Source of the DNA: Catenuloplanes niger
GTDB taxonomy: Bacteria; Actinomycetota; Actinomycetes; Mycobacteriales; Micromonosporaceae
NCBI RefSeq assembly: GCF_031458255.1
Contig: NZ_JAVDYC010000001.1
Coordinates: 1,993,001-2,057,000 of the forward strand
Reading direction: 5' to 3'
Length of the DNA stretch: 64,000 nucleotides
Under the pieces are notes generated by a model that saw only the letters and a list, made by a program, of their open reading frames with translations, did not search any database and was not told the origin of the DNA. Shown piece by piece: positions 588-49,304 of this stretch. Every line of letters starts with the position of its first letter. Within the stretch, counting starts at the first letter, position 1. The position numbers and the translations under genes are program-made.

Positions 588-661
588 TTCCCGCTTCCGG
601 CGACTCCGGTTCCGCATGCTCCCGCGGGCACCGGTCGGCCGTTGGCCGGCCTCCCTGCACG
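588..661 (+). repeat. Dispersed convergent-junction repeat, copy 1 (forward)
   Basis: This ~74 bp element starts TTCCCGCTTCCGGCG, has the core TGCTCCCGCGGGCACCGGTC, then a GGCCG...CGGCC arm pair and ends CTCCCTGCACG. Six further copies occur in the window. It lies between the converging GH95-like gene and lacI. The rest of the gap 455-704 holds no gene that I can support. Confidence 0.85.
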
Positions 662-686
662 CCACGCGTCGCAAGCCCGAGAACCC

Positions 687-735
687 GATCTCCCTCTCGG
701 CCGGTCAGCCGTCGAGGCCGGCCGAGAGGGAGATC
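687..735 (-). terminator. 18-bp perfect inverted repeat at the 3' end of lacI
   Basis: The arms 687-704 and 718-735 (GATCTCCCTCTCGGCCGG and its complement) are perfectly complementary with a 13-nt loop. The lacI stop codon (705-707) sits in the loop, so the last codons form one arm of the stem. There is no clear U-tract, so this may be a terminator or an mRNA-stabilising hairpin. Confidence 0.7.
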
Positions 736-1847
736 GCCGGGCGGGCGGAGGCGGTGCTGGCGCGGGCGGTCAGGCGCGGGTCGAGCAGCGTGGCGTCCGG
801 GACCGGCTCGCCCTCGACCTTGCTGATCAGCAGCGACACCGCCTGCCGGCCGACCTCCTCGGCCGGTATCAGCACCGAGGACAGCGCCGGGTCGGAGCGC
901 TCCGCCAGTTCGTCCGGGCAGATCGCGACCACGGACATGTCGCGGGGCACGCGCCGGCCGAGCGCCGGGAGCGCGGCGAGCACGTGCGCGACCGCGGCCT
1001 CGTTGTGCACGACCAGGCCGGTCAGGTCGGGGCGTTCGGCGAGCAGCCGGGCGAGCCCGTCGCGGACCGCCGGGTAGGTCTCCTCGCACGGCTGCGCGAT
1101 CGCGGCCGCGCCGTGGCGCCGGGCGGTCTCCAGGAAGCCGGAGCGGGTGCGCCGGGCGTATCCGGTGTCGCGTTCGTAGACGACCGCGGGCGCGCCGAGC
1201 AGTGCCAGCGATCGGTGGCCGAGCGCGACCAGGTGTTCCACGCACGCGGCGCCGGCCCGGTAGAAGTCCAGGTCGACGCAGGTGAGCCCGCCCGCGTCGG
1301 CCGGGAAGCCGATCAGCACGCTGGGCCGTTCCAGGTCGTGCAGCAGCGGTACGCGCGGGTCGCGCATCTCCACGTCCATCAGCACGATGCCGTCGACCAT
1401 GGCGGACGCGGCGATCCGGCGCAGCCCGTGCGGTCCCTCGTCCGCGGTGACCAGCAGGACGTCGTGGTCGTACTGCCGGGCGGTGGTGACGACCGCGGTG
1501 GCGAACTGCATGAGGACCGGCAGGTGCATGCCGGTGCGCAGCGGCAGGACCAGCGCGATCACGTTGGAGCGGCGGCTGGCGAGCGCGCGGGCGCCGGCGT
1601 GCGGGTGGTACCCGAGCGTGCGGATGCTGGCCAGGACGCGCTCCCGGGTGATCGCGGAGATCGCGCGTTTGCCGCTGAGCACGTAGGACACGGTGCTGAC
1701 CGCGACGCCGGCGTGCTTGGCCACGTCGGTGATGGTGACCATGTCCGGTCGTTTCCCGGCGGCGCGGCGGCCGGTGGTGCGCCGCCCGGGTGCCGGCCGG
1801 TCCTCGTCGGACGGGCCGCCCTGTGCGGGTACGGAGACCTCAGCCAC
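705..1847 (-). CDS. LacI-family transcriptional repressor
   Basis: 380-residue regulator. After an unusual ~35-residue basic N-terminal extension comes the classic LacI helix-turn-helix (VTITDVAKHAGVAVSTVSYV, residues ~37-56) with hinge, followed by a periplasmic-binding-protein-like effector domain to the C-terminus. The GTG at 1847 is preferred because GAGGGG lies 5 nt upstream and the start overlaps the GH3 stop by 8 nt, giving translational coupling; ATG 1742 would give the usual family length. It is the second gene of the GH3-lacI pair and probably represses the pair through the palindromes upstream of GH3, released by a sugar product of that enzyme. The target and ligand are inference. 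Confidence 0.9.
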   Translation of the reverse strand: MAEVSVPAQGGPSDEDRPAPGRRTTGRRAAGKRPDMVTITDVAKHAGVAVSTVSYVLSGKRAISAITRERVLASIRTLGYHPHAGARALASRRSNVIALVLPLRTGMHLPVLMQFATAVVTTARQYDHDVLLVTADEGPHGLRRIAASAMVDGIVLMDVEMRDPRVPLLHDLERPSVLIGFPADAGGLTCVDLDFYRAGAACVEHLVALGHRSLALLGAPAVVYERDTGYARRTRSGFLETARRHGAAAIAQPCEETYPAVRDGLARLLAERPDLTGLVVHNEAAVAHVLAALPALGRRVPRDMSVVAICPDELAERSDPALSSVLIPAEEVGRQAVSLLISKVEGEPVPDATLLDPRLTARASTASARPAISLSAGLDG

Positions 1848-7887: not shown

Positions 7888-8915
7888 GCGCACCGAACGC
7901 GGTCGAGGTGGCCGGGCCGGATGACGCACCGGCCCAGCCCCTCGCCGAGATCCCCGCCACCCGCCACCGCCGCCACCGCCGCAACCGCCGCAACCTCCGG
8001 GACCGGCTGCGCCGCGACTGGCCGCTGCTGCTCATGGTCGTACCGGCGTTCCTGCTGGTCCTGGTCTTTCACTACGTGCCGACGCTGGGCAACGTGGTCG
8101 CGTTCCAGGACTACAACCCGTTCGCCGGCGACTCGCCGCTGGAGGCGTTCCTCTACAGCGAGTGGATCGGCTTCGGCAACTTCGAGGCGCTGTTCAAGGA
8201 CCCGTCGTTCTGGGACTCGCTGCGCAACACGCTCGCCATCCTGGTCTTCCAGCTGGTCTTCTACTTCCCGCTGCCGATCGTCCTGGCGCTGCTGCTGCAC
8301 AGCGTGCTGTCGCCGAGGCTGCGGTCGTTCATCCAGAGCGTGGTCTACCTGCCGCACTTCTTCAGCTGGGTGCTGGTCGTCTCGTTCTTCCAGCTGATGC
8401 TGGGCGGCGCCGGGCTGCTCGCCCAGGTCGTCCGGGACGCCGGCTACACGCCGCCGGACATCATGACGAACCCGGACGCGTTCATCGTGCTGGTCACGTC
8501 GCAGGCGGTCTGGAAGGACGCCGGCTGGGGCATGATCATCTTCCTGGCCGCGCTGGCCGCGATCGACCCGACGCTCTACGAGGCCGCCGCGGCCGACGGC
8601 GCCGGACGCTGGCGCCGGCTGTGGCACATCACGCTGCCCGGCCTGCGCTCCGTCATCATCCTGCTGCTCATCCTGCGGCTCGGCGACGCGCTCAACGTCG
8701 GCTTCGAGCAGTTCATCCTGCAACGCGACGCGGTCGGCCGGCAGGCCGCCGAGGTCCTCGACACCTACGTCTACTACCGCGGCGTGGTCGTCCAGCAGTA
8801 CGGCATCGGTGCCGCGGCGGGCCTGTTCAAGGCCGCGGTCGGGCTGGTCCTGATCCTGGCCGCCAACAAGATCGCACACCGGTTCGGCGAGCAAGGGATC
8901 TATCAAAAATCATGA
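7884..8915 (+). CDS. Sugar ABC transporter permease (LplB/MalF-like)
   Basis: 343-residue inner-membrane permease with a charged, His/Arg-rich cytoplasmic N-terminus (~45 residues) and about six hydrophobic segments starting at LLLMVVPAFLLVLVF. The EAA loop that docks the ATPase is visible as YEAAAADGAGRWRRLWHITL (residues ~232-251). It overlaps the lipoprotein gene by 4 nt (ATGA). It pairs with the next gene to form the membrane channel. No ATPase gene is present in the operon, so a shared MsiK/MsmX-type ATPase encoded elsewhere is presumed, as is usual in actinobacteria. Confidence 0.9.
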   Translation: MSAPNAVEVAGPDDAPAQPLAEIPATRHRRHRRNRRNLRDRLRRDWPLLLMVVPAFLLVLVFHYVPTLGNVVAFQDYNPFAGDSPLEAFLYSEWIGFGNFEALFKDPSFWDSLRNTLAILVFQLVFYFPLPIVLALLLHSVLSPRLRSFIQSVVYLPHFFSWVLVVSFFQLMLGGAGLLAQVVRDAGYTPPDIMTNPDAFIVLVTSQAVWKDAGWGMIIFLAALAAIDPTLYEAAAADGAGRWRRLWHITLPGLRSVIILLLILRLGDALNVGFEQFILQRDAVGRQAAEVLDTYVYYRGVVVQQYGIGAAAGLFKAAVGLVLILAANKIAHRFGEQGIYQKS

Positions 8916-9844
8916 CTGTCGTCGCGCCGCGTCGCACCTCCCGCCGCCCGGTCTGGGCGGAGAAGCCCAGCGTCCTCGGCCAGCTCGGCAAGGGCACCAT
9001 CCTGACGCTGGTCACCGCCGCCGTCCTGGTCCCGCTCTGGGTCGTGCTGGTCACCAGCCTCTCCTCGGCCGAAACGATCAACGAGGCCGGCGGCTACGTG
9101 ATCGTTCCGCGCGAGTTCGACCCGTCCGCCTACGTCGTGATCTTCTCCGGCGGGCTGATCGGCCGCGCGGTCTGGATCAGCACGCTGATCACGTTCATCG
9201 GCACCGCGATCAGCCTCACGCTCACCGTGCTCGCCGCCTACGGCCTGTCCCGCAGCAACTCCGTCGCGCACCGGCCGCTGCTGTTCTACTTCCTGCTCAC
9301 ATTCCTGATCTACCCGGGCATGATCCCGTCGTACCTGGTGGTCACCGGCCTCGGGCTCAAGAACAACCTGCTCGCGCTCACGCTGCCGACCGCGATCCAG
9401 GCGTTCAACCTGGTGGTGCTGCGCGCGTTCTTCATGAACATCCCGGCCGAGCTGCTCGACAGCGCCCGGATCGACGGCGCCGGCGAGTTCCGCATCCTCA
9501 CCCGCATCGTGCTGCCGCTGTCCAAGGCGGTCGTCGCCGTCATCGGCCTGTTCTACGCGGTCGGCTACTGGAACGCGTTCTTCAACGCCATCCTCTACAT
9601 CGACCGCAACGACCTGCAGCCGCTGCAACGCCTGCTCCAGGGCTACATCCTGCTCGGCCAGGCCCCACCCAACGTCGGCGGCGGCGCCGTCGTGCACATC
9701 CCCGGCATCGGCTACTCCGCCCCGCCCAGCCTCGCCATCAAGATGGCCGTCGTCATCGTCACGGTCATCCCGGCCCTGATCGTCTACCCGTTCATCCAGC
9801 GCCACTTCACCAAGGGCGTCATCATCGGCGCGGTCAAGGGCTGA
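8912..9844 (+). CDS. Sugar ABC transporter permease (LplC/MalG-like)
   Basis: 310-residue second permease. The start is the ATG at 8912, which overlaps the previous stop (ATGA). Six hydrophobic segments are visible and an EAA-type loop reads LLDSARIDGAGEFRILTRIV (residues ~185-204). The C-terminus FIQRHFTKGVIIGAVKG is the family ending. It forms the heterodimeric channel with the upstream permease for oligosaccharide import energised by a separately encoded ATPase. It is the last gene of the operon; a dispersed repeat follows. Confidence 0.9.
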   Translation: MTVVAPRRTSRRPVWAEKPSVLGQLGKGTILTLVTAAVLVPLWVVLVTSLSSAETINEAGGYVIVPREFDPSAYVVIFSGGLIGRAVWISTLITFIGTAISLTLTVLAAYGLSRSNSVAHRPLLFYFLLTFLIYPGMIPSYLVVTGLGLKNNLLALTLPTAIQAFNLVVLRAFFMNIPAELLDSARIDGAGEFRILTRIVLPLSKAVVAVIGLFYAVGYWNAFFNAILYIDRNDLQPLQRLLQGYILLGQAPPNVGGGAVVHIPGIGYSAPPSLAIKMAVVIVTVIPALIVYPFIQRHFTKGVIIGAVKG

Positions 9845-9909
9845 ACCCGCCAAGCGGCGAGACCACCGGAGCCCGAAACCCACCGGCCCAAAATCGATAA
9901 AGGACGATT

Positions 9910-9980
9910 TTCCCGCTTCCGGCGTGGCTGAGCTCCGAGTGCTCCCGCGGGCACCGGTCGTCGCTGGCGCTCCTCCCTGC
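9910..9980 (+). repeat. Dispersed convergent-junction repeat, copy 2 (forward)
   Basis: Begins TTCCCGCTTCCGGCG, has core GTGCTCCCGCGGGCACCGGT and ends CTCCTCCCTG. It lies just after the permease operon. A short complementary pair (AAAATCG at 9890 and CGATTTT at 9905) directly precedes it. Together with the opposite-facing copy 3 it brackets 9981-10225. Confidence 0.85.
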
Positions 9981-10225
9981 CGGATTCGCCGTGGTCCGGA
10001 ACAACCGCCACCCCGCACCACACTCGGAACGTGCCCCACCGCGTTCCGGCTACGTCGAGACCACCCCGCACCGCGATCCGGGCGCCTCCCCCACCGTTCC
10101 GACTACGTCGGGGCGCCCCGCACCGCGAGCGGGCGCGCCCCATGCCGTTCCGGTTCCGGCGGGAGGCCCCGATCGAGGCGGCGGCCGGCGCGGTGGAGCG
10201 CGGGGTCGTGGTGAGTGGGCCGGGA
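9981..10225. repeat. Degenerate ~53-bp tandem repeat tract between repeat copies 2 and 3
   Basis: Three diverged units can be aligned, each containing CCGTTCCG(G/A)CTACGTCG or a variant, followed by CCCCGCACCGCGA. No gene is supportable here. The tract is enclosed by two inverted copies of the dispersed element, in the gap between the converging permease operon and the cyclo-ligase gene. Confidence 0.5.
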
Positions 10226-10299
10226 CGTGCAGGGAGGCCGCTCGCGGCCGACCGGTGCCCGCGGGAGCGCTCGGAGCCCGGCCACGCCGGGAGCGGGAA
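10226..10299 (-). repeat. Dispersed convergent-junction repeat, copy 3 (reverse)
   Basis: Reverse-complement orientation: starts CGTGCAGGGAGGCCG, contains GACCGGTGCCCGCGGGAGC and ends AGCGGGAA. The outer arm pair GGCCGC/GCGGCC matches copies 1 and 6 rather than copies 2, 4 and 5. It ends 10 bp before the stop of the cyclo-ligase reading frame. Confidence 0.85.
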
Positions 10300-10308
10300 T
10301 ATCTGCTT

Positions 10309-11085
10309 TTAAAGGCTTTTGCGCAGTTGCTGGAGGAGCGGGATCGCGGCGATCTTCTCCTCGGTGAGGTCGGCCCAGTCGATGCGGCCGGTGGCGCGCG
10401 CGGGGCGGTGCGGGCGGCAGTCGATCACGCGGGACGGCGTGACGATCAGGTCGAGCGGGACGTCGTGGCTCGTGGTGGGAATGTCGCCGGCGGGACGGAC
10501 CTGGGTCTCGTGGACCGTGGTGACCACCAGCGTGTGCGGGCCGATCAGGCCGGCGGCGGACGCGACCGCGTACTCCAGGTCGGCGAAGCCACCCCCCTAG
10601 CCGAGCCGGGCACCGTCCGCGCCGGCGGCCACGCAGCCGGTCACCACCAGGTCGACCGCGGTGAGCTCGGCGACCGGGACGCGGCGGGCGGAACGGGTCG
10701 CGCCGGCGATCGACGCGGCGCGACGTGGCGTGTCGGCCAGGTGCGCGGGGTCGAGGAGGAAGAACGGCTCCGGCTCGGCCAGCCGGGGCACGGCCATGAA
10801 GACGGTCTTGCCGTCCTGCAGCGCGCGCTGGCGGACCGGCAGCTGCGCGGAGTCCGGGTTCGCCTTGACCGTGCGGGCGGCGGCCCACTCGGGCAGCGCG
10901 CGCAGGCGCTCGGCCGCGGCCTCGGCGCCGATGAAGTTGGAGATGCGGTGCCGGGCACCGGGGAACCGGGCCGCCTTCGCCGCGATCAGCGCGTCCCAGA
11001 CCTCGTCGCGGAGCGCGGCCTTCGCGGCCAGCAGCTCGGCCGGGCCGCCGGCGTCGTGGTCGTGGCGCTTCGGCGGTCGGGGCAT
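10309..11085 (-). pseudogene. 5-formyltetrahydrofolate cyclo-ligase-like gene interrupted by an in-frame TAG
   Basis: The frame reads as a complete 258-codon MTHFS-family protein (ATP-dependent conversion of 5-formyl-THF to 5,10-methenyl-THF) except that codon 163 (10597-10599) is TAG. Before it the protein ends ...GCVAAGADGARLG; after it, in the same frame, it continues GGGFADLEYAVASAAGLIG and runs to a TAA at 10309 with the family ending. The stop replaces the residue before GGG in the nucleotide-binding loop RLG(K/Y)GGG, where AAG or TAC would need one base change. The N-terminal substrate motif (KANPDSAQLPVRQRAL) is intact. No frameshift is needed. Explanations are recent inactivation, sequencing error, or readthrough. 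A second functional copy elsewhere would be expected if this one is dead. Confidence 0.85.
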
Positions 11086-19389: not shown

Positions 19390-19862
19390 CCACCCGACGA
19401 ACCGCCCGCGGCACCGCACGGCACAGCGAGTTCCCGGGCATCGATCCCCGCGAGGCGACGGGCCCAGCGACCGGCTGGGCTCTTTATCCCTGATGTATCC
19501 GACATGCTGGCCGCCGAACGTGACGCGCACCGCGAGCGACCGCCCCGCGGTGCCGACCGGCTGCGGACTTCCCCCGGGCGCAAGCATCGGCGATGAGCTG
19601 CGGCGCGCGCACTCCCAGAACCGCCACGCCGCACGGACCCAACAGGCGGCACGGAACCGGCCACGCGGCTCGACTCGGCCACGCACGGAACCGGCTACGC
19701 GGCGCGGACATGGGCAGGCGTCACGAACCCAGCACGCGGCGCGGAAGCAGCCACGCGCGGAAGCAGCCACGCGCGGAAGCAGCCACGCGCGGAAGCAGCC
19801 ACACGGCATGGAAGCGGCCAGGCTGCGCGGGAACACGGCACGGAAACAGCCCGAGGCTCTGA
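19390..19862. repeat. Gene-free repeat tract left of the IS element
   Basis: From about 19600 the DNA is built of diverged ACGCGGCGCGGAA(C/G)CAGCC-like pieces. A clean 16-bp unit (GCGGAAGCAGCCACGC) is repeated four times at 19741-19804. The same motif continues to the right of the IS element at 21116-21500. 19390-19600 contains nothing I can assign. Confidence 0.7.
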
Positions 19863-21115: not shown

Positions 21116-21500
21116 GCAGACCCCGACGGCACGCAACGGCCAGGCGACACGCAAACGGCCACCCGGCGCGGAAACAACCAGCCGGCGCAGAAGCAGCCAG
21201 CCGGCGCAGAAGCAGCCAGCCGGCGCAGAAGCAGCCCAGCCGGCACGAAAGCAGCCCAGCGGCGCGGAAACAGCCGCGCACGGAAGCAGCCACGCGGCGC
21301 GGAACCAGCCCACGGCGGAACCATCCCCACGGCGCGGAGGCAGCCACGCGGCACGGCACCAGCCCCACGGCGGAACCAGCCCCACGGCGGAACCAGCCAC
21401 GCGGCACGAAAACAGCCCCACGGCGGAACCAGCCACGCGGCACGAAAACAGCCCCACGGCGGAACCAGCCACGCGGCACGGAAACAGCCGCGCGGCGCTG
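21116..21500. repeat. Repeat tract right of the IS element
   Basis: This continues the tract interrupted by the IS. A 19-bp unit around GGCGCAGAAGCAGCCAGCC occurs about three times near 21183-21240. A 36-bp unit (start CACGGCGGAACCAGCC) is repeated three times from 21383 to about 21490. Long open frames here in several phases are a by-product of the repeats; I see no real gene. Confidence 0.75.
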
Positions 21501-21605
21501 AGCTAACCGGCTACTCGGTCCGACGCGCGCGGCTACGGAACCGTCGCGTGGGTCGTGCACGCCCGGGCGTGGGAGGGCCCGTGGGGTTTGGCCGGGCCGG
21601 GACCG

Positions 21606-21675
21606 GCAGGGAGGAGCGCCAGCGACGACCGGTGCCCGCGGGAGCACTGGGAAGCGATCACGCCGGAAGCGGGAA
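21606..21675 (-). repeat. Dispersed convergent-junction repeat, copy 4 (reverse)
   Basis: Starts GCAGGGAGGAGCGCCAGCG, has GACCGGTGCCCGCGGGAGCA and ends CCGGAAGCGGGAA. It lies 21 bp beyond the stop of the AAA15 ATPase gene. Ignoring the IS insertion, this is the junction of the converging EamA and ATPase genes. Confidence 0.85.
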
Positions 21676-21695: not shown

Positions 21696-22946
21696 TCAGC
21701 CGGCCTTCGGCGTCTTGACCGCGCGCAGTTTCCGGCCGACCTGGCCCTCGCCGAGGTCCGGGACCGCGCCGAAGCGGCCCGCGAGGTACGACGTCGGCAG
21801 GTCCTCGTGGCGGCCGGGCTGGGCGGCGGTGAGCGGGAAGATGTCGCTGCAGCCGATTTTGTCCTTCTCGACGAGCCAGACCTGGCCGGGTTCGAGGAGG
21901 CGTTTGCCGCTCGGGGTGCTGAGCACGCTGACGTCGTGCGCGGTGAAGAGCAGTTGCGCGTCGTTCGTGTTGACCTCGGGGTCCTGGAAGAGGCGGACGA
22001 CCTCGGCGGCGAAGCGCGGGTGGAGGCTGGAGTCGAGTTCGTCGACGAGCAGGACGGCGCCCTCGTCGAGTGCGAGCAGCATCGGGCCGAGCATGGCGAA
22101 CCAGCTGCGGGTGCCGAAGGACTCGGATTCCCAGGGCATCGGGTACGCGGTGCCGTCCGCGCCGGTGTGGATGAGCTGGACGTCGGTGACGGTGCGGCCG
22201 GCGACGCGGGTCTCGACCGGTTCGACGCCCTCGATGCCGAGGTCGGCGGCGCGCAGCAGCGCTTCGATCCGGTCGCGTTGCGGGCCCAGCACGGCCTGGC
22301 GGGTGAACTCCTCGCGCTGGTAGCGCTCGTCCTCGGGGGTGAGGAACCAGAGGTTGCGCTCGAACCAGTAGAAGACCGGGGCCAGATCGGGGTGGTTGTT
22401 GGTGGCGGCGACGGTGAGGAACAGCGCGTTCGGCCGGGTCATCTTGACCATTGCGGCGCGGTCCTTGAGCCGGTCGCCGGGGAATTCGAAAGGCTGCCGG
22501 CGGGACGCGTCGCGGTCGAACCAGACCTGGCGGCGGCCGCGCGGATAGGCGTGCAGCCATTCGGCCACGACGCGGTCCGGGCCGAGCTCGAATCCGTAGG
22601 TGTAGCGAATGCCGTCGTTGACGAAATCCAGCTCGTAGAGCGACGTCTCCCGTTCGGCGGCGGGGTCGAGTGCGAACAGTTCGCGGGGCACGCCGCGCTG
22701 GGTGGCCCACTGGTAGTACGAGTCGAGCACGGCGGTGCGCATCTCGACGAGGCCCTTGAGGAGATTGGACTTGCCGGACGCGTTCGGCCCGAAGATGCCG
22801 ATCAGCGGGTAGACGTCCATGCTGCGGCCACCGGCCACCGGCACCTGACGCGAGGCGTGGGCGGTCTTGCCGGTCGGGACGGCGAATGCCAGCTCCCGCT
22901 CTTCGCGGAAGGACCGGACATTGGCGACCCGGAACTTCAGCAGCAT
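21696..22946 (-). CDS. AAA15-family ATP-binding protein (orphan, possible defence ATPase)
   Basis: 416-residue SMC/RecF-like ABC-type ATPase. The N-terminus MLLKFRVANVRSFREERELA is the family start, and the P-loop is GIFGPNASGKSNLLKG (residues ~49-64). The insertion region follows (residues ~100-290), then the Walker B block VLLVDELDSSLHPRFAAEVV and the switch histidine in LLFTAHDVSVL. GAGGAGA precedes ATG 22946. Proteins of this COG1106-like type occur in abortive-infection and PARIS-type systems, where they are paired with a DUF4435/RloB-like effector, but no partner gene is next to this one: gltD ends on one side and the IS/repeat tract lies on the other. The function is therefore open. 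Confidence 0.85.
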   Translation of the reverse strand: MLLKFRVANVRSFREERELAFAVPTGKTAHASRQVPVAGGRSMDVYPLIGIFGPNASGKSNLLKGLVEMRTAVLDSYYQWATQRGVPRELFALDPAAERETSLYELDFVNDGIRYTYGFELGPDRVVAEWLHAYPRGRRQVWFDRDASRRQPFEFPGDRLKDRAAMVKMTRPNALFLTVAATNNHPDLAPVFYWFERNLWFLTPEDERYQREEFTRQAVLGPQRDRIEALLRAADLGIEGVEPVETRVAGRTVTDVQLIHTGADGTAYPMPWESESFGTRSWFAMLGPMLLALDEGAVLLVDELDSSLHPRFAAEVVRLFQDPEVNTNDAQLLFTAHDVSVLSTPSGKRLLEPGQVWLVEKDKIGCSDIFPLTAAQPGRHEDLPTSYLAGRFGAVPDLGEGQVGRKLRAVKTPKAG

Positions 22947-29392: not shown

Positions 29393-30268
29393 ATGCCTCA
29401 GGTCGACGCCGCCCTCTTCGCCCGCCTGGAACGCTTCTACGACGGGGTGCCGCGATTCGCCGCCCGGGCCGAAGACTTTGGCGCATTGGTGCTCTTCATT
29501 GGCAGTAACGACGCGTACCCGCTTTATGCCCGGCCAGCATTGCGGGCGGGGAAAACGCCGTCCGCCGCAGACATTACCGCCGTGCGGCGGCGCCAGCGGG
29601 ACATCGGCGCGCCGGAGGCGTTCGAGTGGGTGCACGAGACCAGCCCGGATCTGCTGGCCGTGGCCCGGTCGGCCGGGCTGGACGTGCTGGAGGCACCGCT
29701 GATGGTGCTCGACCCGGATGCGATGCCGGCCATCACCGATGACGAATTCATTTCGGTGCGGTTAATGGCGCCGGAGGACGCGTCGTTCGCGCACGACGTC
29801 GCGATCCGCGGCGCGGTCGCGGCGGTCTCGTTCGGGCACGCGGGCACCGCGGCCGGCCCGGCCGGCGCGTCCGCGCGGGACGCGGCGCTGACACCGCTGT
29901 CCGCCGGATCGCTGGCGCTGCACCGGCGCCGCGCCGAGACGGGACAGGCCGCGTCCGCGCTGGCCGAGGTGAAGAATCCCACTGACCCGGAAGTCAGCGG
30001 CGTGGTCGGCAGCGGCATGTATCAGCGAGCGGACGACGTCGCGGAGATCGTCGGCGTGGCCACGCTGCCGGCCGCCCGCCGCCGCGGGGTGGCCCGCGCG
30101 GTCACGGCCGCGCTGGCCCGGCACGCGCTCGACGCCGGCACCGGCCTGGTCTTCCTGTCCGCCGCGTCGGACGACGTCGCCGCCATGTACGCCCGCCTCG
30201 GCTTCCGCCGGGTCGGCACGGCCTGCATCGCCGAACCGGCGGCGGTCCCGGCGCCACAGGCACCCTGA
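29393..30268 (+). CDS. GNAT-family N-acetyltransferase
   Basis: 291 residues. The C-terminal half carries the acetyl-CoA-binding signature VGVATLPAARRRGVARAVTA and the strand/helix end VFLSAASDDVAAMYARLGFR with the (Y/F)xxxGF motif. The N-terminal half (from MPQVDAALFARLERFYDGVP) is a second, diverged GNAT-like fold seen in related two-domain actinobacterial proteins. It would transfer acetyl to an amine on an unknown small molecule or protein. ATG 29393 is preferred over 29378 because of the -10 position. Its last codons are the seed of a 17-bp tandem repeat running past the stop. Confidence 0.8.
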   Translation: MPQVDAALFARLERFYDGVPRFAARAEDFGALVLFIGSNDAYPLYARPALRAGKTPSAADITAVRRRQRDIGAPEAFEWVHETSPDLLAVARSAGLDVLEAPLMVLDPDAMPAITDDEFISVRLMAPEDASFAHDVAIRGAVAAVSFGHAGTAAGPAGASARDAALTPLSAGSLALHRRRAETGQAASALAEVKNPTDPEVSGVVGSGMYQRADDVAEIVGVATLPAARRRGVARAVTAALARHALDAGTGLVFLSAASDDVAAMYARLGFRRVGTACIAEPAAVPAPQAP

Positions 30269-30374: not shown

Positions 30375-30444
30375 TTCCCGCTTCCGGCGTGGTCGCGTTC
30401 CGAGTGCTCCCGCGGGCACCGGTCGTCGCTGGCGCTCCTCCCTG
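30375..30444 (+). repeat. Dispersed convergent-junction repeat, copy 5 (forward)
   Basis: Starts TTCCCGCTTCCGGCGTGGTC, core GTGCTCCCGCGGGCACCGGT, ends GCGCTCCTCCCTG; nearly identical to copies 2 and 4. It lies between the converging GNAT and monooxygenase genes. The rest of the gap (30445-30750) contains diverged GCGGACAGACCG-type repeats and no supportable gene. Confidence 0.85.
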
Positions 30445-36840: not shown

Positions 36841-36914
36841 CGTGCAGGGAGGCCGCCCGCGGCCGACCGGTGCCCGCGGGAGCACTCGGAACGCGACCAC
36901 GCCGGAAGCGGGAA
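36841..36914 (-). repeat. Dispersed convergent-junction repeat, copy 6 (reverse)
   Basis: Starts CGTGCAGGGAGGCCGCCCGC, has GACCGGTGCCCGCGGGAGCA and ends CCGGAAGCGGGAA. It lies between the converging small gene (36570) and trpM. Confidence 0.85.
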
Positions 36915-36948: not shown

Positions 36949-37011
36949 CTACTCGTCGTTCCTGCGTTACTAGTCGTTTGTGCGCTACTCGTCGTCTCTG
37001 CGCTACTCGTC
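36949..37011 (-). repeat. 18-bp tandem repeat copying the trpM stop codon
   Basis: CTACTCGTC-type blocks begin at 36949, 36967, 36985 and 37003, exactly 18 bp apart. On the minus strand each starts (G)ACGAGTAG, so the real stop TAG (37003-37005) is followed by two or three further in-frame stops in copied context. The third copy has drifted to GACTAGTAA. Confidence 0.85.
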
Positions 37012-37584
37012 CGTCGGGTCCTCGCCGCGGTCCAGCGCGTCCCAGGCCTGACGGGTGCCGCGCGGGGCGTTGACCGCCGGGGCCGGTTCGGACCGGCCGG
37101 CGGCGGGGCGCTCGTAACGGGCGCCGAGCGACGGCCAGTCCGCGCCGCGGGCCACCGTCCAGGCGCCCGCCGCCGCCACCGCCGCGCCGCCCAGCGACGT
37201 CAGCGCCGGCCAGACGCCCGCGGCCAGCTCGGTCGCGGCACCGGCCGCGATCGCCAGGCCCAGCGCGGCCACCAGGCCGCCGATCGCGCGCCGGACCAGC
37301 GCGCGGGTGGCGATCAGCGCGCCCGCGCCGGCCAGCGCCACCACCGCCAGTGGTTGCAGCCACACCAGCAGGTCGGAGCCGGTACGGTCGGCGCTGCGCG
37401 GCGGCAGCGGCGCGGGCCGCTCCGTCACCTCCACCAGCCAGACCCGGGTCACCGCGTAGAGCGCCAGGCCGGCGCCGGCCACGCAGAGCAGCAGCGCGAG
37501 CGTGAACGCCCGCCGGCCACCGGCGCCCGGCCCGGACGCGACCGGATCGCGTCCGGTCGCCGGACCGGCCGGATCGGTGGTCAT
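37003..37584 (-). CDS. Trp-biosynthesis-associated membrane protein (TIGR02234-like)
   Basis: 193 residues. It has four hydrophobic segments ([78 protein letters not shown]) with a short Pro/Gly-rich head and an acidic tail. Position between trpE and trpC and this topology match the actinobacterial family annotated as tryptophan-operon membrane protein, whose molecular role is not established. It overlaps trpE by 4 nt and is the last gene of the hisI-trpE-trpM unit. Its stop region is tandemly copied. Confidence 0.85.
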
Positions 37585-39475: not shown

Positions 39476-39691
39476 AGCTCTCGATTCTCTCGCATCGCCC
39501 CGCGGGCCCCGCGACCCGCCCTTCGGTCGTGACAACGGCTCACGTCCCGGCGTGATCGGCGGGGCCCGGTGAATCGCCCGGCCGCGCATTAAGTCAGACA
39601 TTTTACCGGGCAAATGCACTCCCGGGGTGCTGTGCCGGTGACGTGTGCCGGGTACCGTCGGCTCACCTCACGAGCGGACGGAGATAACGCC

Positions 39692-42600
39692 ATGCCCCCG
39701 ACGCCCCCCTCCGCGGCCGACGACGACGGCCCTCCCGGCTGGCAGGCGCACGGGCGACCGGTCCCGCACCCCCGGCGGGCGGCGGACAGCGCGGCGTTCT
39801 TCTCCGACACCGGCGAGAGCCCGGAGGTCACCCAGCCGTCCGACGCGCCGCTCCCGCCGTACATGGCGCAGCTCTTCGACCACCCCGGCGCCGGGCAGCA
39901 GGCCGACGCGGGCAACCCGTGGGCCCCGCCGGCCGCGCCGCCGCCGACGGCCGGGCGCGGTGACGGGTTCTACGACTACGGGGACGACGACGAGTACGAG
40001 ACGGAGCGCTTCGGCGATCCGCGCGAGCAGCGCGCCGCCGTGGTCGACCTGGCCGGCTGGTCCCGCCTCAACCCGGCCAACGCACAACCCGACGCCTCCG
40101 GGGCGACGCCCGCGCACCGCCCGGACCCGCGGGACCCGGAGCCGGACCGGCCGAGCCTCGACTTCGGCACCGGCCAGGCCGAGGCGACACAGGCGATCGA
40201 TCTCGGCGACGTACCGCGCGCTCCCGGCCCCGGCGGGTACCCGCCGGGGCCGAGGTCCGCGGGTGGTCCGCCGCCCGGGCCGGGAGTCGCGGATGGTTCG
40301 CCGCCCGGGCCGGGAGTCGCGGACGGTTCGCCGCCCGGGCCGGGAGTGGCAGGTCAGGGGGCCGATCCGGCGGGAACGCCGGTGGCCGAGTTCTCGCCGT
40401 TGAGCGCGCGGGACCACGTGGACGGGAAGCCGCCGCCCGCGCCGTCGGGCGGTGGCCGGCACGTCGGTGGGCTGCAGCCGATCACGCCGGGCGTCCGGCC
40501 GGGAGTCCGCCCGGCCGTCCGGCCGTTCACTCCGCGGCAGGCCGGCTCGCCGCCGGCGGAGGGCGGGCCGGGTGCACGGTCCGGTGAACCCGGCGGACCG
40601 AACGTACCGGCGCAGGGTGGCCAGGGCTTTTCGCCCCGTGCGGCGGGTGCGCCGGCGACCGGCGCCGAGCCCGAGGTGGAGCAGGATGCCACGTTCGCTC
40701 CGCTCACGCCGGCCGGCGGTGTCCCGCAGCCACCGCGGACCGGGCAGAACCCGTGGAGTGGGCGGCCGTACGTGCCCGAGGTTCCGCCGATCCCGGACAC
40801 CGCGCGCAGCCCGTGGGCGCCGTTCGGCGGCGGGACGCCGGTGACCGAGCCGGAGTCGGGACCGGCGCCGGGCCATTCGGGGGCATCGCGTGTCGAGGAA
40901 GCCCCCGAGGTCATCGGCTGGCCGTTCGCCCCGCGGACGGCACCGGACGACTCAGCGCCGGATACCCGCACCGCCGCGGGGCCTGGCGATGTGTCAGCAC
41001 AACGTCCTGGCACAGTCGGGCCGGATGTATCGGCACAAAGTGTCGGTACTGAGGCGACATCTACTGGTACTGATACAGCGGCTGACGGCGGCGGTGAGGC
41101 GCCGAGTGGCGGGTCCGCGGTCGCCGGCGCAGATCGCAGTGTGGGGGGTGATCACCGCTCGGGCGGCAAGCCCGCCGGGAGCGGTGACCATCGAGTGAGC
41201 GGCAATCCCACGCCGGGCGGCAGCCCTGCTCACGCCGTGGGCGGCAGTCCCGCGGCGAGCGGAAATCCTGCGCACGTTGTGAGCGGCAGCCCCGCCCATG
41301 CCGTGAGCGGCAATCCCCCGGTGAGCGGCGGCCCCGCCCATGCCGTGAGCAGCAGCCCCACGGTGAGCGGCAGCACCACGGTGAGCGGCAGCACCACGGT
41401 GAGCGGCAGCACCACGGTGAGCGGCAGCACCACGGTGAGCGGCGGCTTCGCCGGAGGCGGTGGCCACGCCGAGCAGGGCGACGACCGGATCGCGGCCGAC
41501 GGTGAGGTCGCCAGCAGCGGTCAAGCCGTTGGAGCCGGCGGGGGTGCCGACGTCGGCGTGACTACGGACGCGGTGCGGACCGAACCGCCGGCTCGTGTGC
41601 GCCCGCGCACTTGGCAACCGATTCCTCCGCAGGCCACGATCACCGGGACGACGGCTCCTGGCGGCGCTCGGGGAGCGGCCGGGCTCGACGGCGAAGCGGT
41701 GGCCTCCGCGTGGCCGTCCGCGACTGAACCACCGACCGCGCCGCTACCCTCCACCGAGCCGGTGCCGGCTGCGGACAGGCTCGTTTCCGGGCCCGGCACG
41801 GCCGCGGTCGACGCCGGCGGGGCGACCGGTGGTGCAGCAGCCGATGACGTGACGGATCCGGCTCGCTCCGTGGTGGAGGAGCACACCGCGAATGCGGATC
41901 CGGCGGCACCGGATCCGGCGAGTGCGCCTCCCGCGCCGGTGTGGGTCGCGACCACCCGATTGCGGCCCGTGGACCTACCGCCGGACCGGGACGACGACCC
42001 GGCGACCGGGCCGGATCCACGCGACGCCACGACCGGCTGGAACGCGCGCACCGACGAACAGCCGATCCTCGACACCGCTCCGGACGGACGGACCGGCATC
42101 GCCGGCCTGCCGCCCGCCACCGTCGACGAGGGCGCATCGGGGCCCCGGTCCGACGACGGCCGGGTCACCGGTAAGCACTCGGTACGACCCCGGCAGCGCA
42201 CCGGCGGCGGTGCGCTGCCGTCCCAGGCCGCCGGCGCGCGGGACGAGACCCCGGTCGAGGTGATCGAGGCCATCATGGAGGCGTTGCGGGAGCGTACCGG
42301 CGAGCAGGTTCCGGTGTCCGACGCCGCCCTGGGCCTGAACGGCACCTCGCTGTCCGCCGAGGCCACGGCCGACGCGCTCCGGGCTGCGGGTGGCCTGCTG
42401 CCCGCAGCCGAACACCCGCAGGCCTCGACCGTTCGGGAGCCCGCCGCGGGTGTTGCCGAAACAGGCCCGGCCACGGAACTCGACGAACTGCCGCTCTCCC
42501 CCACCGATGTCCCACCGGTCGCACCGGGTCACGAAGACCGGGCCACCGCACCCGCCAGCATCCCGACGATCACCCCGGAAGACGACGACCGGCCGACCGC

Positions 42601-45391
42601 CCTCACCGGCACCCCGGCGACCGCACCGGGACACGAAGACGAGCCGACCACAGCCACCGGCACTCCGGCGACCGCGCATGGGGAAGAACACCGGGCCGCG
42701 GCACCCGCCGGCGGCCCGGCAGCCACGCCGGAACACGAGGACCGGTCGCCCAGCCCCGCCGGCGCTCCGGGACACGAGAACCGGGCCACCGCACCCGCCG
42801 GCGGCCCGGCGGCCACGCGGGAACACGAGGACCGGTCGCCCACGCCCGCCGGCGTTTCGCTGGAGGCGGGCACCGTCACGACGGCCAGCGGTCCGGGGAC
42901 TGCTTCCGCCGGAATCGGGCCGGCCTCGCCCTCCGCGGACATCCCTCGAGGTGGCTCGTCCGTCGACGGCGAGGCGGACACGCCCGCCGCCGGCTTGCCC
43001 GCGGTCCCGTCGGGCGGCAGGGTCGAGACGACGCCGTCGAGCGGCACGGACCGCGAGGAGCCGTTCGGTACTGTCCCGGCCTCGCCGATCGGTGACACCG
43101 CCGCGGCGGCAGAACGCGACCGGGCACGCGCGGACGACGCGGGTGTCCGGCCGGACACCGACGCCCACGTGCCCACGGACGCCACCACCCGAACCCTGAC
43201 CGGCCAGGACACCGGTACGCAGGAGGACGCCGACGCCGCAGGTCGCGTCGACGCCGCCACCCAGGACCGGACAGACGGCGATACCGGTATCCGGACAGAT
43301 CGCGACACCGGTATGCGGCCGGAAACCGACGGCGGTACGCGGGCCGACGCGGACGGTGCTGTCGGGGTCGACGCTGACGCCCGTGTTCGGACCGGTGTGA
43401 CGCCCGAGGAAGCACCGGAAGAGCTACAGGAACCGTCCGATGATGCAGAGCCGGGCGTGCCTCATCTCGCCGTGAATGCGCGGGCCGATGCGGACGACGC
43501 GCACCCCGCCACGGGCCAGCCGGCGCCGGAGGGCTCCGCGGCACAGGGCGGGCAGGGCCTCTCCTTCGAGCGAAGTGCCGAGATCGGCGCGGCCGTCGCC
43601 GCCCTCCGTTCGGGTGCGCGGAAGGCGGGCAGCATCGTCTACACACCGGCGGCGATCGCGCGCCGACGGGAGCCCGCTCCGGAGCACACGGAGGAGAATC
43701 CGCTCACGGCCACCGCCGAGGCCGACGCATCGGCCGTCGACCCGCCAGCCGGCGCCGGGGAGTCCGCCGCCCCGCAGGCACACGAGACCACACCATCCGC
43801 GGTCCGAGCGGCAGACGACGGCCCGCTATCCCGTCGAGCGGCAGACGACACCACGCCATCCGCCCGCGCAGCAGACGACAGCGCGGTTTCTGCCCGAGCG
43901 GCCGGCGGCAGCGCGATCTCCGCCCGAGCGGCAGGCGACAGCGTCATCTCCGCCCGGGCAGCAGGTGACACCACAGAACTCGTCACCCAGGCAGCGGATC
44001 ACACCGCAACGAACGCCGCGCGACCGGCGGACGACACCGCTGGACTCTCCGTGCAGGCGGGAGGCGACGGTGCGGTATCCGCCGCGCGGCCGACACCCGG
44101 CACCGGGAAACCCGCCACCCGGGCGGCAACCGACATCACGGACTTCAGTGCCCCGTCCGCGCCCGGTGCGTCGCACCGCAGCGCCGAATCGGTGACCGGC
44201 ATCGCGGGAGCCGGCGCCCATCCGGGAACTGGCATCGCGGAGTCCGCCTATCCGGGGACGAGCGTCGCGGACTCCTCTGGCGGTCCCGCGACGGACACCG
44301 CGGGGCCCGTCCGAGGTTCGGTGACCGGAGCCGGTGAATTCTCCGCGCCCGAGCCGCGCGATGACGTGGCTGACCTCGTGACCGAGGCGGAGGCATCCGC
44401 TGCTCAGCCGGCAGCCGGTGCTCACTCCCGGACCGTCCCGGCGTTCGCTGCAGACCCGGACCCGGACGCCGTCGCCGCCGAGGGCGGCTTCGCCGCTCAG
44501 CGGGATCCGGTTGGCGGCCCGGTGACGCCGGACATCGAAGCCTCTACGCCGGCAAAGATCAGCGGCACCGGTGATCCGGCGGCCACCTCGGTCCCGATCG
44601 AGACCAAAAGCCCTGTCGGCACCCAAAGCCGGCAAGACACCACGACCCCGAACGACACCAGGAGCCCGAACGACACCACGGGCCCGAACGACACCGCCGG
44701 CCCGGACGACGACCTGCGAGACGTTCCGGCGGCCACCGCCGGGGAGTATTCCGGGCGGACGAGCTGGGCGCGGACGCCCGCGGAGGAGCCCGGATGGGCC
44801 GCCGTCCCGGACACCGCCGCCCTCCTGGCCCCGGACGCCATCCCGGCCACCGCCCCAGCCGCGGCTCCGGACTCCGTTCCGGCCCCGGCCGCGGCGGCCG
44901 CCGCGGCCGGGGCCGTGCGGAGCGGTCCCGCGGCCGCCCCGCCGGACACGAACCTTTCCGGCGCGCCCGAGGATCGGGCGACCGTGACGAACGCACCCGA
45001 GCGTGATGACGAGGATGACGACGTGACTGTGCTCAGCACGACACCGGACCACGACCACCCCGACGACCACCACGACCACGAGGACGACGCGCCGCAGCTG
45101 CGGCCCGGTGATGTGGTGGAGACGCCGATCGCGGTGTGGACGGACGAGGCCGCGGCGCCGTTCCGGCAGCAGTGGCACGAGATCAAGGCGCAGTTCGTGG
45201 ACGACCCGGTGGGTGCGTTGGCGCAGGCGCAGACCGTGTGCGCGAACGCGGTGCACGACCTGGCGGACGCGCTGCTGGCGGAGCAGGCGGGCCTGGATCC
45301 GCACAAGACCAACGCCACGCCGGACACCGAGAGCATGCGGATCGCGATGCGCCGCTACCGCGAGTTCCTGGACCGCGTCCTCGCGCTCTGA
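39692..45391 (+). CDS. Giant low-complexity protein with a conserved C-terminal helical domain
   Basis: 1,899 residues. About 1,800 are Pro/Ala/Gly/Ser/Thr/Asp-rich and predicted disordered by composition, with almost no Lys or Cys and no signal peptide or membrane segment. Several internal repeats are visible: PPGPGVADGS (x3, ~residue 195), VSGSTTVSGSTT (~560), ATAPAGGPAAT-(P/R)EHEDRS (~1010-1060), SARAAG(G/D)S (~1390-1430) and PNDT (~1650). Only the last ~95 residues look folded (TPIAVWTDEAAAPFRQQWHE, FVDDPVGALAQAQTV, then MRRYREFLDRVLAL); that domain resembles a C-terminal helical domain of unknown function in streptomycete proteins (RW...FVD.PR.AV..AD...L...LRVALRRYR.F...L). ATG 39692 follows GGAG with good spacing. 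The frame is unbroken with strong third-position GC. Role unknown; a cytoplasmic scaffold is a guess. Confidence 0.8.
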   Translation: MPPTPPSAADDDGPPGWQAHGRPVPHPRRAADSAAFFSDTGESPEVTQPSDAPLPPYMAQLFDHPGAGQQADAGNPWAPPAAPPPTAGRGDGFYDYGDDDEYETERFGDPREQRAAVVDLAGWSRLNPANAQPDASGATPAHRPDPRDPEPDRPSLDFGTGQAEATQAIDLGDVPRAPGPGGYPPGPRSAGGPPPGPGVADGSPPGPGVADGSPPGPGVAGQGADPAGTPVAEFSPLSARDHVDGKPPPAPSGGGRHVGGLQPITPGVRPGVRPAVRPFTPRQAGSPPAEGGPGARSGEPGGPNVPAQGGQGFSPRAAGAPATGAEPEVEQDATFAPLTPAGGVPQPPRTGQNPWSGRPYVPEVPPIPDTARSPWAPFGGGTPVTEPESGPAPGHSGASRVEEAPEVIGWPFAPRTAPDDSAPDTRTAAGPGDVSAQRPGTVGPDVSAQSVGTEATSTGTDTAADGGGEAPSGGSAVAGADRSVGGDHRSGGKPAGSGDHRVSGNPTPGGSPAHAVGGSPAASGNPAHVVSGSPAHAVSGNPPVSGGPAHAVSSSPTVSGSTTVSGSTTVSGSTTVSGSTTVSGGFAGGGGHAEQGDDRIAADGEVASSGQAVGAGGGADVGVTTDAVRTEPPARVRPRTWQPIPPQATITGTTAPGGARGAAGLDGEAVASAWPSATEPPTAPLPSTEPVPAADRLVSGPGTAAVDAGGATGGAAADDVTDPARSVVEEHTANADPAAPDPASAPPAPVWVATTRLRPVDLPPDRDDDPATGPDPRDATTGWNARTDEQPILDTAPDGRTGIAGLPPATVDEGASGPRSDDGRVTGKHSVRPRQRTGGGALPSQAAGARDETPVEVIEAIMEALRERTGEQVPVSDAALGLNGTSLSAEATADALRAAGGLLPAAEHPQASTVREPAAGVAETGPATELDELPLSPTDVPPVAPGHEDRATAPASIPTITPEDDDRPTALTGTPATAPGHEDEPTTATGTPATAHGEEHRAAAPAGGPAATPEHEDRSPSPAGAPGHENRATAPAGGPAATREHEDRSPTPAGVSLEAGTVTTASGPGTASAGIGPASPSADIPRGGSSVDGEADTPAAGLPAVPSGGRVETTPSSGTDREEPFGTVPASPIGDTAAAAERDRARADDAGVRPDTDAHVPTDATTRTLTGQDTGTQEDADAAGRVDAATQDRTDGDTGIRTDRDTGMRPETDGGTRADADGAVGVDADARVRTGVTPEEAPEELQEPSDDAEPGVPHLAVNARADADDAHPATGQPAPEGSAAQGGQGLSFERSAEIGAAVAALRSGARKAGSIVYTPAAIARRREPAPEHTEENPLTATAEADASAVDPPAGAGESAAPQAHETTPSAVRAADDGPLSRRAADDTTPSARAADDSAVSARAAGGSAISARAAGDSVISARAAGDTTELVTQAADHTATNAARPADDTAGLSVQAGGDGAVSAARPTPGTGKPATRAATDITDFSAPSAPGASHRSAESVTGIAGAGAHPGTGIAESAYPGTSVADSSGGPATDTAGPVRGSVTGAGEFSAPEPRDDVADLVTEAEASAAQPAAGAHSRTVPAFAADPDPDAVAAEGGFAAQRDPVGGPVTPDIEASTPAKISGTGDPAATSVPIETKSPVGTQSRQDTTTPNDTRSPNDTTGPNDTAGPDDDLRDVPAATAGEYSGRTSWARTPAEEPGWAAVPDTAALLAPDAIPATAPAAAPDSVPAPAAAAAAAGAVRSGPAAAPPDTNLSGAPEDRATVTNAPERDDEDDDVTVLSTTPDHDHPDDHHDHEDDAPQLRPGDVVETPIAVWTDEAAAPFRQQWHEIKAQFVDDPVGALAQAQTVCANAVHDLADALLAEQAGLDPHKTNATPDTESMRIAMRRYREFLDRVLAL
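41363..41434 (+). repeat. 18-bp tandem repeat inside the giant gene
   Basis: GTGAGCGGCAGCACCACG is repeated four times without a single change, encoding (VSGSTT)4. Perfect identity at the DNA level points to recent expansion by slippage or recombination. The flanks contain diverged relatives (VSGNPAHAVSGSP). Confidence 0.9.
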
Positions 45392-45435: not shown

Positions 45436-45464
45436 TTGCCCTCCGGGGCCGCCTCGGCTACCGT
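45436..45464 (+). promoter_or_regulatory. Candidate promoter of the ABC-2 efflux operon
   Basis: TTGCCC (45436-45441) and TACCGT (45459-45464) are spaced 17 bp, a good sigma-70-type layout. It starts directly after the terminator and leaves a ~50-nt leader before ATG 45518. Confidence 0.5.
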
Positions 45465-45517
45465 TATTTCAACACCCGATGAATTGAGGATCCACCCCAT
45501 GGAAAGGGGCCCGGCCC

Positions 45518-46968: not shown

Positions 46969-47019
46969 GGGCCACTGGTCCCGGCCGCGACGACGCTGCG
47001 CCGCCGCACACCCTGAGGG
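46935..47019 (+). repeat. Duplicated 3' end of the permease gene
   Basis: A 37-bp segment ending CCGCCGCACCCCCTGAGGG is repeated 48 bp downstream with only a few changes (period 48). The second TGA (47014-47016) is in frame with the first, so the copy would act as a back-up stop. Confidence 0.85.
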
Positions 47020-47079
47020 ACGCACGCCGGTCCCCTGGCACGATGGATACCGACCATCGGGCCGAAGGGGGCGCAGCAC

Positions 47080-48432: not shown

Positions 48433-48449
48433 GTTCTGGTCCCTCCGAC

Positions 48450-48488
48450 TTACGTTAGGCTTGCCTTAGTAAGGGAAGGCTAACTTAC
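48450..48488 (-). promoter_or_regulatory. Tandem iron boxes (DtxR/IdeR/DmdR-type operators)
   Basis: Bases 48450-48468 match the consensus TTAGGTTAGGCTAACCTAA at 15 of 19 positions, and 48470-48488 match at 14 of 19. They start 18 bp upstream of the DUF2470 gene and end 62 bp upstream of rpsD. Two adjacent 19-bp boxes fit binding of paired repressor dimers. Confidence 0.85.
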
Positions 48489-48550
48489 TCGGCCCGGGAA
48501 GCCAATCAAGCCCCCGGGTCCGCGGACAACCACCTCTGGAGCGCTAGAAC

Positions 48551-49159
48551 GTGAACCAAACCAGGCCCAAGGTCCGCATTTCCCGTGCCCTCGGCATGCC
48601 GCTGACCCGCAAGTGCGTCAAGTACTTCGAGAAGCGGCCGTACCCGCCGGGCGTGCACGGGCGGTCCCGCAAGAAGCCGTCGGACTACCAGGTCCGGCTG
48701 CTGGAGAAGCAGCGGCTGCGGCATCAGTACAACATCTCCGAGACCCAGCTGCGGCGCGCGTTCGACGACGCGGTCCGCAAGCAGGGCCGTACCGGCGAGA
48801 ACCTGCTGCAGATCCTGGAGAGCCGTCTGGACGCCACCGTGCACCGCGCGGGGCTGGCCCGGACCATCTACCAGGCCCGCCAGCTGGTCGCCCACGGGCA
48901 CTTCACCGTGGACGGCAAGAAGGTCGACCGGCCCTCGTACCGGCTCAAGGAGGGCCAGGTCGTGGAGGTGCGCGAGCGTAGCCGCGTGAAGCCGCCGTTC
49001 CAGGTGGCCGCGAGCGGCGCGCACGTGGACGGCCCGACCGCGCCCTACCTGTCGACCGCGCTGGGCGAGCTCAAGACCACCGTCCTGCGCACCCCGACTC
49101 GTACCGAGATCCCGGTGCTCTGCGACGAGCAGCTGGTCGTCGAGTTCTACGCCCGCTGA
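48551..49159 (+). CDS. rpsD: 30S ribosomal protein S4
   Basis: 202 residues. KRPYPPGVHGRSRKKPSDYQ and the S4 RNA-binding domain (LESRLDATVHRAGLARTIYQ, then ARQLVAHGHFTVDGKKVDRP) are clear. Only one cysteine is present in the N-terminal region (RKCVKYFEKR), so this is the zinc-free form. The gene stands alone rather than in the alpha operon, and resembles the monocistronic S4 of streptomycetes. S4 nucleates 30S assembly and binds 16S rRNA. GTG 48551 follows TGGAG at 9 nt. Whether a second S4 exists elsewhere in the genome cannot be seen. Confidence 0.95.
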   Translation: MNQTRPKVRISRALGMPLTRKCVKYFEKRPYPPGVHGRSRKKPSDYQVRLLEKQRLRHQYNISETQLRRAFDDAVRKQGRTGENLLQILESRLDATVHRAGLARTIYQARQLVAHGHFTVDGKKVDRPSYRLKEGQVVEVRERSRVKPPFQVAASGAHVDGPTAPYLSTALGELKTTVLRTPTRTEIPVLCDEQLVVEFYAR

Positions 49160-49174
49160 TCCAGCACAGGGACA

Positions 49175-49222
49175 CACTTCGCCGGCCGCGGCTTCAGGCC
49201 CCGCGGCCGGCGAAGTGCTTTT
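49175..49222 (+). terminator. Rho-independent terminator after rpsD
   Basis: CACTTCGCCGGCCGCGG (49175-49191) pairs with its complement at 49201-49217 (17-bp stem, 9-nt loop), followed by CTTTTC. A dispersed repeat copy begins 10 bp later. Confidence 0.9.
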
Positions 49223-49231
49223 CAGAATCCT

Positions 49232-49304
49232 TTCCCGCTTCCCGGGTGGTCACCCTCCGAGTGCTCCCGCGGGCGACGGTCGGCCCGGGGGGCCTCCCTG
49301 CACG
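49232..49304 (+). repeat. Dispersed convergent-junction repeat, copy 7 (forward)
   Basis: Starts TTCCCGCTTCCCGGGTGGTC, core GTGCTCCCGCGGGCGACGGT, then GGCCCGGGGGGCC and CTCCCTGCACG. It is the most diverged copy but keeps both palindromic parts. It lies between converging rpsD and the ABC exporter gene. Confidence 0.82.

Follow-up and report, generated by a model that had tools for sequence, protein, structure and literature searches.

MITEs are short, non-coding elements with lineage-specific amplification that carry terminal inverted repeats and target duplications. bcr1 is a repeat specific to the Bacillus cereus group with the behaviour of a mobile element. REP elements have a palindrome with the tetranucleotide GTAG or CGTC at its foot and lie for the most part downstream of genes, in gaps of convergent or unidirectional type (PMC3733652). 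BRE, the beta-proteobacterial repeat element of Bordetella, is GC-rich, about 90 bp long, present as full-length and partial copies in several genera and, in the section describing it, reaches a maximum of 29 copies (PMC3110155). Among the matches listed from the open-licence PMC literature, no such repeat is described for Catenuloplanes or Micromonosporaceae.

In this study, we describe an interspersed repeat of Catenuloplanes niger. It is like MITEs in being short, non-coding and amplified by lineage. Of the marks of MITEs, clear terminal inverted repeats or target duplications were not seen at the repeat, orthologous gaps without it are not clean pre-insertion sites, and its ends show by eye a weak TTTTCC/GGAAAA match. 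With bcr1, set beside it by description only, it shares group specificity and an apparent mobile-element behaviour; the difference is that bcr1 belongs to another phylum. The likeness to BRE extends to size, GC-richness, full-length and partial copies and presence in several genera, the comparison being with the description in the same section and not with sequences (PMC3110155).

Copies of the repeat in the window

The repeat is non-coding and approximately 75-120 bp long. The 139 copies of type R1 begin with a T-rich edge, after which come TTCCCGCTTCCGGCG (B1), a variable spacer (some 15 nt), TGCTCCCGCGGGCACCGGTCG (B2), a short module, of which there are two versions, then CCTCCCTGC and finally a tail whose end is near AAACCCG. 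The window, i.e. the whole stretch of 64,000 nucleotides that was analysed, contains seven copies, and the positions, strands and sequence reading of the initial annotation were confirmed for all of them. So was its division into two subtypes, with GGCC-type arms in copies 1, 3, 6 and 7 (type R1b) and TCGCTGGCGCTC in copies 2, 4 and 5 (type R1a). The extent of the repeat had been drawn too short on the right, where the actual end lies about 25-35 bp further on, in a tail like GGTGGTCCGG..AAACCC.

Copy 1 (R1b, 588..661, + strand) lies behind a gene with a Glyco_hydro_95_C match, which ends at 454 and is cut by the window edge; its tail reaches to about 690. Copy 2 (R1a, 9910..9980, +) follows a BPD_transp_1 gene (8912-9844) and consists of B1 (9910-9924), spacer (9925-9940), B2 (9941-9960), the module TCGCTGGCGCT (9961-9971) and CCTCCCTGC (9972-9980), with a tail to about 10007. 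It is faced by copy 3 (R1b, 10226..10299, - strand) in one common convergent gap. Copy 4 (R1a, 21606..21675, -) is situated 20 nt behind an AAA_21 gene (21696-22946), and GAAGCGG just before the repeat forms an inverted repeat with CCGCTTC. Copy 5 (R1a, 30375..30444, +) is found behind a GNAT acetyltransferase gene (29393-30268) and copy 6 (R1b, 36841..36914, -) behind a Trp_oprn_chp gene (37003-37584). The gaps orthologous to that of copy 6 lack the repeat in the congeneric genomes G001, G002 and G003, and G004 has a variant. Copy 7 (R1b, 49232..49304, +), whose core has two mismatches, follows an S4-type gene (48596-49159) together with the intrinsic terminator of that gene; the tail of the copy extends to 49330 and adjoins the stop codon of the converging gene. 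In all five Catenuloplanes species this gap carries the repeat in some form, the right-hand parts differing.

Searching the window with the 20-mer GCTCCCGCGGGCACCGGTCG at up to 3 mismatches gave 7 matches vs 0.15 expected, and at most one in each of 100 shuffles. The window is rich in copies, the genome average being about 1.5 per 64 kb (234 in 9.74 Mb). No tRNA was found in it, and comparison with the Rfam covariance models gave no match at gathering score; the region 9800-10400, which holds copies 2 and 3, gave two matches with E values of 7.6 and 8.1, neither overlapping a copy. Long gaps at 21140-21508 and 19616-19838 are filled by imperfect GC-rich tandem arrays, e.g. CGGAACCAGCCCCACGG, one of which adjoins copy 4.

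Distribution among genomes

The core CTCCCGCGGGCACCGGTCG with at most 2 mismatches occurs 234 times in the C. niger genome and its reversed control 4 times. Four other genomes of the genus have 152, 154, 195 and 336 core matches, and the 56 others of 61 genomes have 0-7, which lies within the range of their controls. Scanning named genomes yielded 84 matching stretches, all in C. japonicus NRRL B-16061 except one in Dactylosporangium fulvum. A stricter pattern matched 7 of 300 genomes of the family, namely five Catenuloplanes and, with one copy each, G012 and G129; these two single exact-pattern copies gave no clue to origin. With a first profile (E<=1e-4), 9 of 61 genomes were matched, the five Catenuloplanes and one copy each in G006, G012, G020 and G022, and there was no match in 24 genomes of other families. 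A second profile, built with eight copies from other genera included and with at most 107 candidates scored per genome, matched 14 of 38 genomes: G021 has 57 copies, G071 15, G129 8 and ten further genomes 1-5. The other 24 of the 38, including all 5 from other families, were without a match. In a class-wide draw under stricter filters, only C. niger matched among 148 genomes.

As far as seen, the repeat family is limited to Micromonosporaceae and is patchy there, and Catenuloplanes represents a strong amplification of it. The search of the genome and its relatives that had been proposed, here run with patterns and profiles, thus bore out a large family within Catenuloplanes (152-336 copies in congeners), but outside the genus most genomes with the repeat have few or single copies.

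These numbers invite comparison with REP elements. In common with REP/BIME, as far as the part of PMC3733652 concerned with them goes, the repeat has high copy number, a hairpin, an intergenic location mostly downstream of genes and some facing pairs. It differs in its length of 75-120 bp, in long conserved blocks outside the hairpin, in exchangeable right-hand modules and in its polarity to the stop codon (PMC3733652, same part). A profile search (controls matched in 5 of 14) found no match to the Y1 transposase family PF01797 in the five Catenuloplanes genomes (G000, the C. niger genome, and G001-G004), in G021 or in G071, and the machinery usual for REPs is thus not seen in these copy-rich genomes. 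PF01797 is present in G129 (2 matches) and G020 (1 match), which carry 8 and 1 copies of the repeat. It is highly improbable that the repeat belongs to the REP/BIME family and owes its mobility to a RAYT (Y1) transposase, even though its placement is that of REPs in the source's account, both behind genes and in the spaces separating convergent and unidirectional ORFs (PMC3733652), and even though some copies form facing pairs: the transposase was not found where copies abound, and the repeat is longer and modular. Unlike REP/RAYT, it was found in one bacterial family only.

Placement at gene ends

According to our own gene caller, all seven window copies lie inside convergent junctions and occupy 6 of the 12 such junctions, as counted in the initial annotation. 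The absence from divergent and head-to-tail gaps also stated there is true of the window (0 of 24 tandem and 0 of 11 divergent junctions) but not of the genome, where 54 copies with context comprise 39 convergent, 8 tandem sense, 5 tandem antisense and 2 divergent ones. Copies are therefore in convergent or tandem gaps in 52 of 54 cases. The corresponding figures for 70 copies of C. japonicus are 44, 11, 15 and 0; 31 copies of other genera comprise 21 convergent, 6 tandem sense, 3 tandem antisense and 1 divergent. Behind a gene in sense are 27 of these 31, including all 12 of the 12 in G071. Copies at a locus edge were dropped (1 of 55 in C. niger, 15 of 85 in C. japonicus, 12 of 43 in other genera). 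Gene orientations come from a codon-usage caller that shortened a 1,925-aa repetitive ORF, so that single junctions may be wrong. This ORF (39614-45391, + strand) has 18-bp tandem repeats GTGAGCGGCAGCACCACG near 41177-41464, and the caller retained only its end.

In 20 evenly spaced 20-kb samples, 19.1% of intergenic bases belonged to convergent gaps; among 3' ends that border gaps of 100 nt or more, the convergent share was 46.7%. The enrichment at converging junctions (39 of 54) that the initial annotation had suggested examining is significant against intergenic length (p=4e-17) and against the 3'-end null (p=1e-4), i.e. copies are not random as to gene orientation. Removing the window copies leaves p=3e-13 and p=0.003, respectively, and C. 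japonicus gives p=1e-15 and p=0.005.

Roomy convergent gaps (at least 150 nt spare) reveal a polarity. The TTCCCGC end is nearest the preceding sense stop in 24 of 24 copies of C. niger and 32 of 34 of C. japonicus (56 of 58). Tight convergent gaps show no such polarity (7 of 15 in C. niger and 4 of 10 in C. japonicus), and tandem gaps in the two species together show no orientation bias (19 sense vs 20 antisense). Of the explanations offered with the initial annotation, an insertion preference agrees with this picture, since a placement preference fits both the convergent bias and the polarity to gene 3' ends.

Two rival readings bear on the same observations. A neutral mobile repeat might insert anywhere and survive only where harmless, in 3'-3' gaps; this would suit the scarcity of divergent copies (2 of 54 vs 29% of intergenic bases in divergent gaps, by evenly spaced samples) and the fact that no copy of C. 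niger was called inside a gene. We consider it unlikely, because it leaves unexplained both the 56 of 58 polarity in roomy convergent gaps and the convergent excess over the 3'-end null. The repeat might instead insulate convergent transcription units from one another, as a candidate DNA site to which a nucleoid protein or topoisomerase would bind. In favour are the convergent placement and the length of the conserved blocks. Tandem gaps also carry the repeat, however, and it is patchy among sister species and among genera; this reading appears very unlikely.

Modular structure and variants

The near-invariance of B2 is partly by construction, many copies having been fetched by B2 itself: the C. 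japonicus loci were found by the exact B2 pattern, and 20 centred C. niger loci were picked around exact matches. In 20 evenly spaced C. niger loci the exact core is present in 5 of the 7 copies having both or one arm. What stands behind B2 varies. Besides the short module of R1, short forms and rarer right-hand modules, there is an R2 module (AACCTC-stem-CTCCGCYGGCGCTCCGC-stem-GGAGCCGG), whose exact pattern was counted 7, 36, 171, 10 and 7 times in G000, G001, G002, G003 and G004, respectively, the 171 being those of C. japonicus. Further, the spacer variant CGGCAGCG is found in 33 of 70 C. japonicus copies vs 0 of 47 C. niger copies. Judged from sequence, such lineage-specific variants point to amplification or homogenisation inside lineages.

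The left edge is T-rich, with three or more T among the 6 nt across it, in 45 of 54 C. niger and 68 of 70 C. japonicus copies. AAGCGG or GAGCGG directly upstream, which forms an inverted repeat with CCGCTT, accompanies 9 of 54 copies in the former and 0 of 70 in the latter. In 43 copies from other genera, collected as matches to a pattern with at most 1 mismatch, GCTCCCG, ACCGG and TCCCTGCC are found again, and ACCGG and TCCCTGCC flank a hairpin.

Some further structures were observed at individual loci. A third right-hand module, GGGCGCTNGAG..CTGGGG..CCCCAGACCCCGAGCCCGC, occurs at the C. japonicus loci L102, L142 and L092; at L102 and L142 it lies upstream of a copy of R2 type, at a distance of about 160 bp. 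In G071 (L240-L251) many copies are followed by extra hairpin repeats like CACGACCTGCGGTCGTG, which in some cases form short tandem arrays. At a few sites a second insert seemed to enter the loops; the pattern count gave 3 cases, 1 of them behind B2, and the claim was dropped.

Orthologous gene ends in sister species

Of 26 chosen C. niger sites, 25, all having the stop within 140 nt, were compared with three sister species; a locus edge cost us the remaining one. Presence was scored by pattern, degenerate copies being counted as absent. The repeat is present in sense at the orthologous end in 14 of 24 cases in G003, 19 of 25 in G004 and 9 of 24 in G001 (42 of 73 in total). Identity at the 42 shared sites is 90.6% for coding ends, 92% for B1 and 94% for B2, the block values being inflated by the use of the blocks to recognise copies. 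The linker between stop codon and repeat has an identity of 55.5% at shared vs 30.9% at random sites; identity well above random means that the sites are truly the same. Identity of the spacer is 66.6% at shared sites vs 61.7% at random ones (p=0.01), that of the flank beyond the module 62.1% vs 58.2% (p=0.0009), and the class of the right module agrees at 15 of 42 shared sites vs 11.8 +/- 2.8 at random. Turnover of the interior, by exchange or rewriting, is therefore much faster than that of the anchors or of the site itself.

Among the orthologous gaps, none was seen to be a clean empty site carrying a target duplication; gaps without the repeat differ across much intergenic sequence. At locus L291 of G003, orthologous to the facing pair at L049 of C. 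niger, only a short palindrome AGAAGCGG-ATGCTC-CCGCTTCT stands between both stops and resembles the left edge of the repeat. Other palindromes, TTATTCAGCGCGCTG and CCACAGC..GCTGTGG, were met in G004 (L064-L067, L300-L319), with 7 and 6 matches in 104 kb; in C. niger each has 1 match in 864 kb, a palindrome possibly counting on both strands.

Folding, pairing and termination

Ten strands from the seven window copies gave fold z-scores of -1.01 to +1.33, no better than shuffles. Pairing was assessed by swapping halves among copies. The R2 stems fold at -11.98 kcal/mol with their own halves vs -7.22 with swapped ones, and the right-hand hairpin of other genera at -13.05 vs -10.69 kcal/mol (24 distinct sequences in each case, relatedness not corrected). 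The left spacer, first read by eye as a compensating hairpin, failed the same test, with -6.60 (own) vs -6.74 kcal/mol (swapped) for 151 distinct Catenuloplanes spacers and -10.27 vs -10.69 kcal/mol for 40 spacers of other genera. A weak opposite tilt is that spacers fold at -5.06 vs -4.44 kcal/mol for their shuffles, 61% being stabler. Covariation in 139 R1 copies was likewise rejected as pairing: the top column pairs 73-80 and 74-79 shift along with the unpairable 71-80 and 71-81, and one subtype switch explains them all. RNAalifold found 4 pairs in the 43 copies of other genera, 1 of them with changes on both sides. The compensation that the initial annotation saw in the arms comes down, inside type R1, to this one subtype switch; in the right module of R2 and in the hairpin of copies from other genera, own halves do pair better than swapped ones. 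Compensatory pairing is supported for the right-hand hairpin only.

A terminator-like hairpin with a T-run within 110 nt of the stop is found at 4 of 38 convergent ends with the repeat vs 8 of 168 without (Fisher p=0.24). At the former it precedes the repeat, and including the repeat region still gives 4 of 38. Taken with the fold z-scores, these counts do not support the bidirectional terminator proposed with the initial annotation. They likewise reveal no deficit of terminator-like hairpins at ends carrying the repeat, and we discarded the idea that it replaces terminators. C/(C+G) on the sense strand is 0.563 in the repeat, 0.576 upstream and 0.541 downstream, which lends no support to the C-rich, G-poor bubble of a Rho-dependent terminator. 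By eye, several copies lie beyond a clear intrinsic terminator; a strict script found one in 3 of 47 C. niger and 1 of 55 C. japonicus linkers.

A functional 3'-end signal may nevertheless be considered, i.e. a Rho-dependent or protein-assisted terminator or an RNA processing or stability element that would be selected behind stops and spread as useful. We regard this as a possible, tentative reading. It would account for the polarity behind stops, for B1 and B2 being kept at shared sites where linker and spacer have diverged, for the conservation of GCTCCCG, ACCGG and TCCCTGCC across genera, and for the right-hand hairpin backed by the half-swap tests. It is weakened by the ordinary fold z-scores, the missing C-rich bubble, the copies downstream of intrinsic terminators, the antisense copies in tandem gaps and terminator-like hairpins that are not depleted at repeat-bearing ends, though these are rare at both kinds of end.

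Conclusions

We give about an even chance to the reading that the repeat is interspersed and non-autonomous, that its placement is directed to gene 3' ends and that its copies exchange sequence with one another. In its favour are the copy numbers, the lineage-specific variants, the polarity in roomy convergent gaps, the location behind genes in other genera, and the shared sites with their changing interiors. Repeats would be mobilised in trans by a putative enzyme favouring free DNA behind gene 3' ends. Seated copies would swap spacer and right-hand module with other copies, via gene conversion or re-insertion, so that the site would be inherited and the interior would turn over. Amplification that is patchy among genomes is in keeping with such mobility, and the location of copies would then reflect placement and not function. 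No autonomous partner of the repeat was found. Some observations sit less easily with a mobile repeat: clean empty sites with a target duplication were not seen, tandem gaps show no orientation bias and tight convergent gaps no polarity, spacer and downstream flank at shared sites are slightly above random, and selection on a function would likewise keep the blocks conserved there. We rate as rather doubtful a 3'-end-seeking cassette-swapping system, in which site and anchor blocks would be kept and hairpin modules exchanged among hundreds of dispersed copies by a putative non-Y1 machinery.

Partly shared sites with changing contents, together with a common direction behind genes in convergent gaps, make two questions testable by ordinary sequencing: whether interspersed repeats help to end or protect transcripts, and what exchanges sequence among dispersed short bacterial repeats that have no visible transposase.
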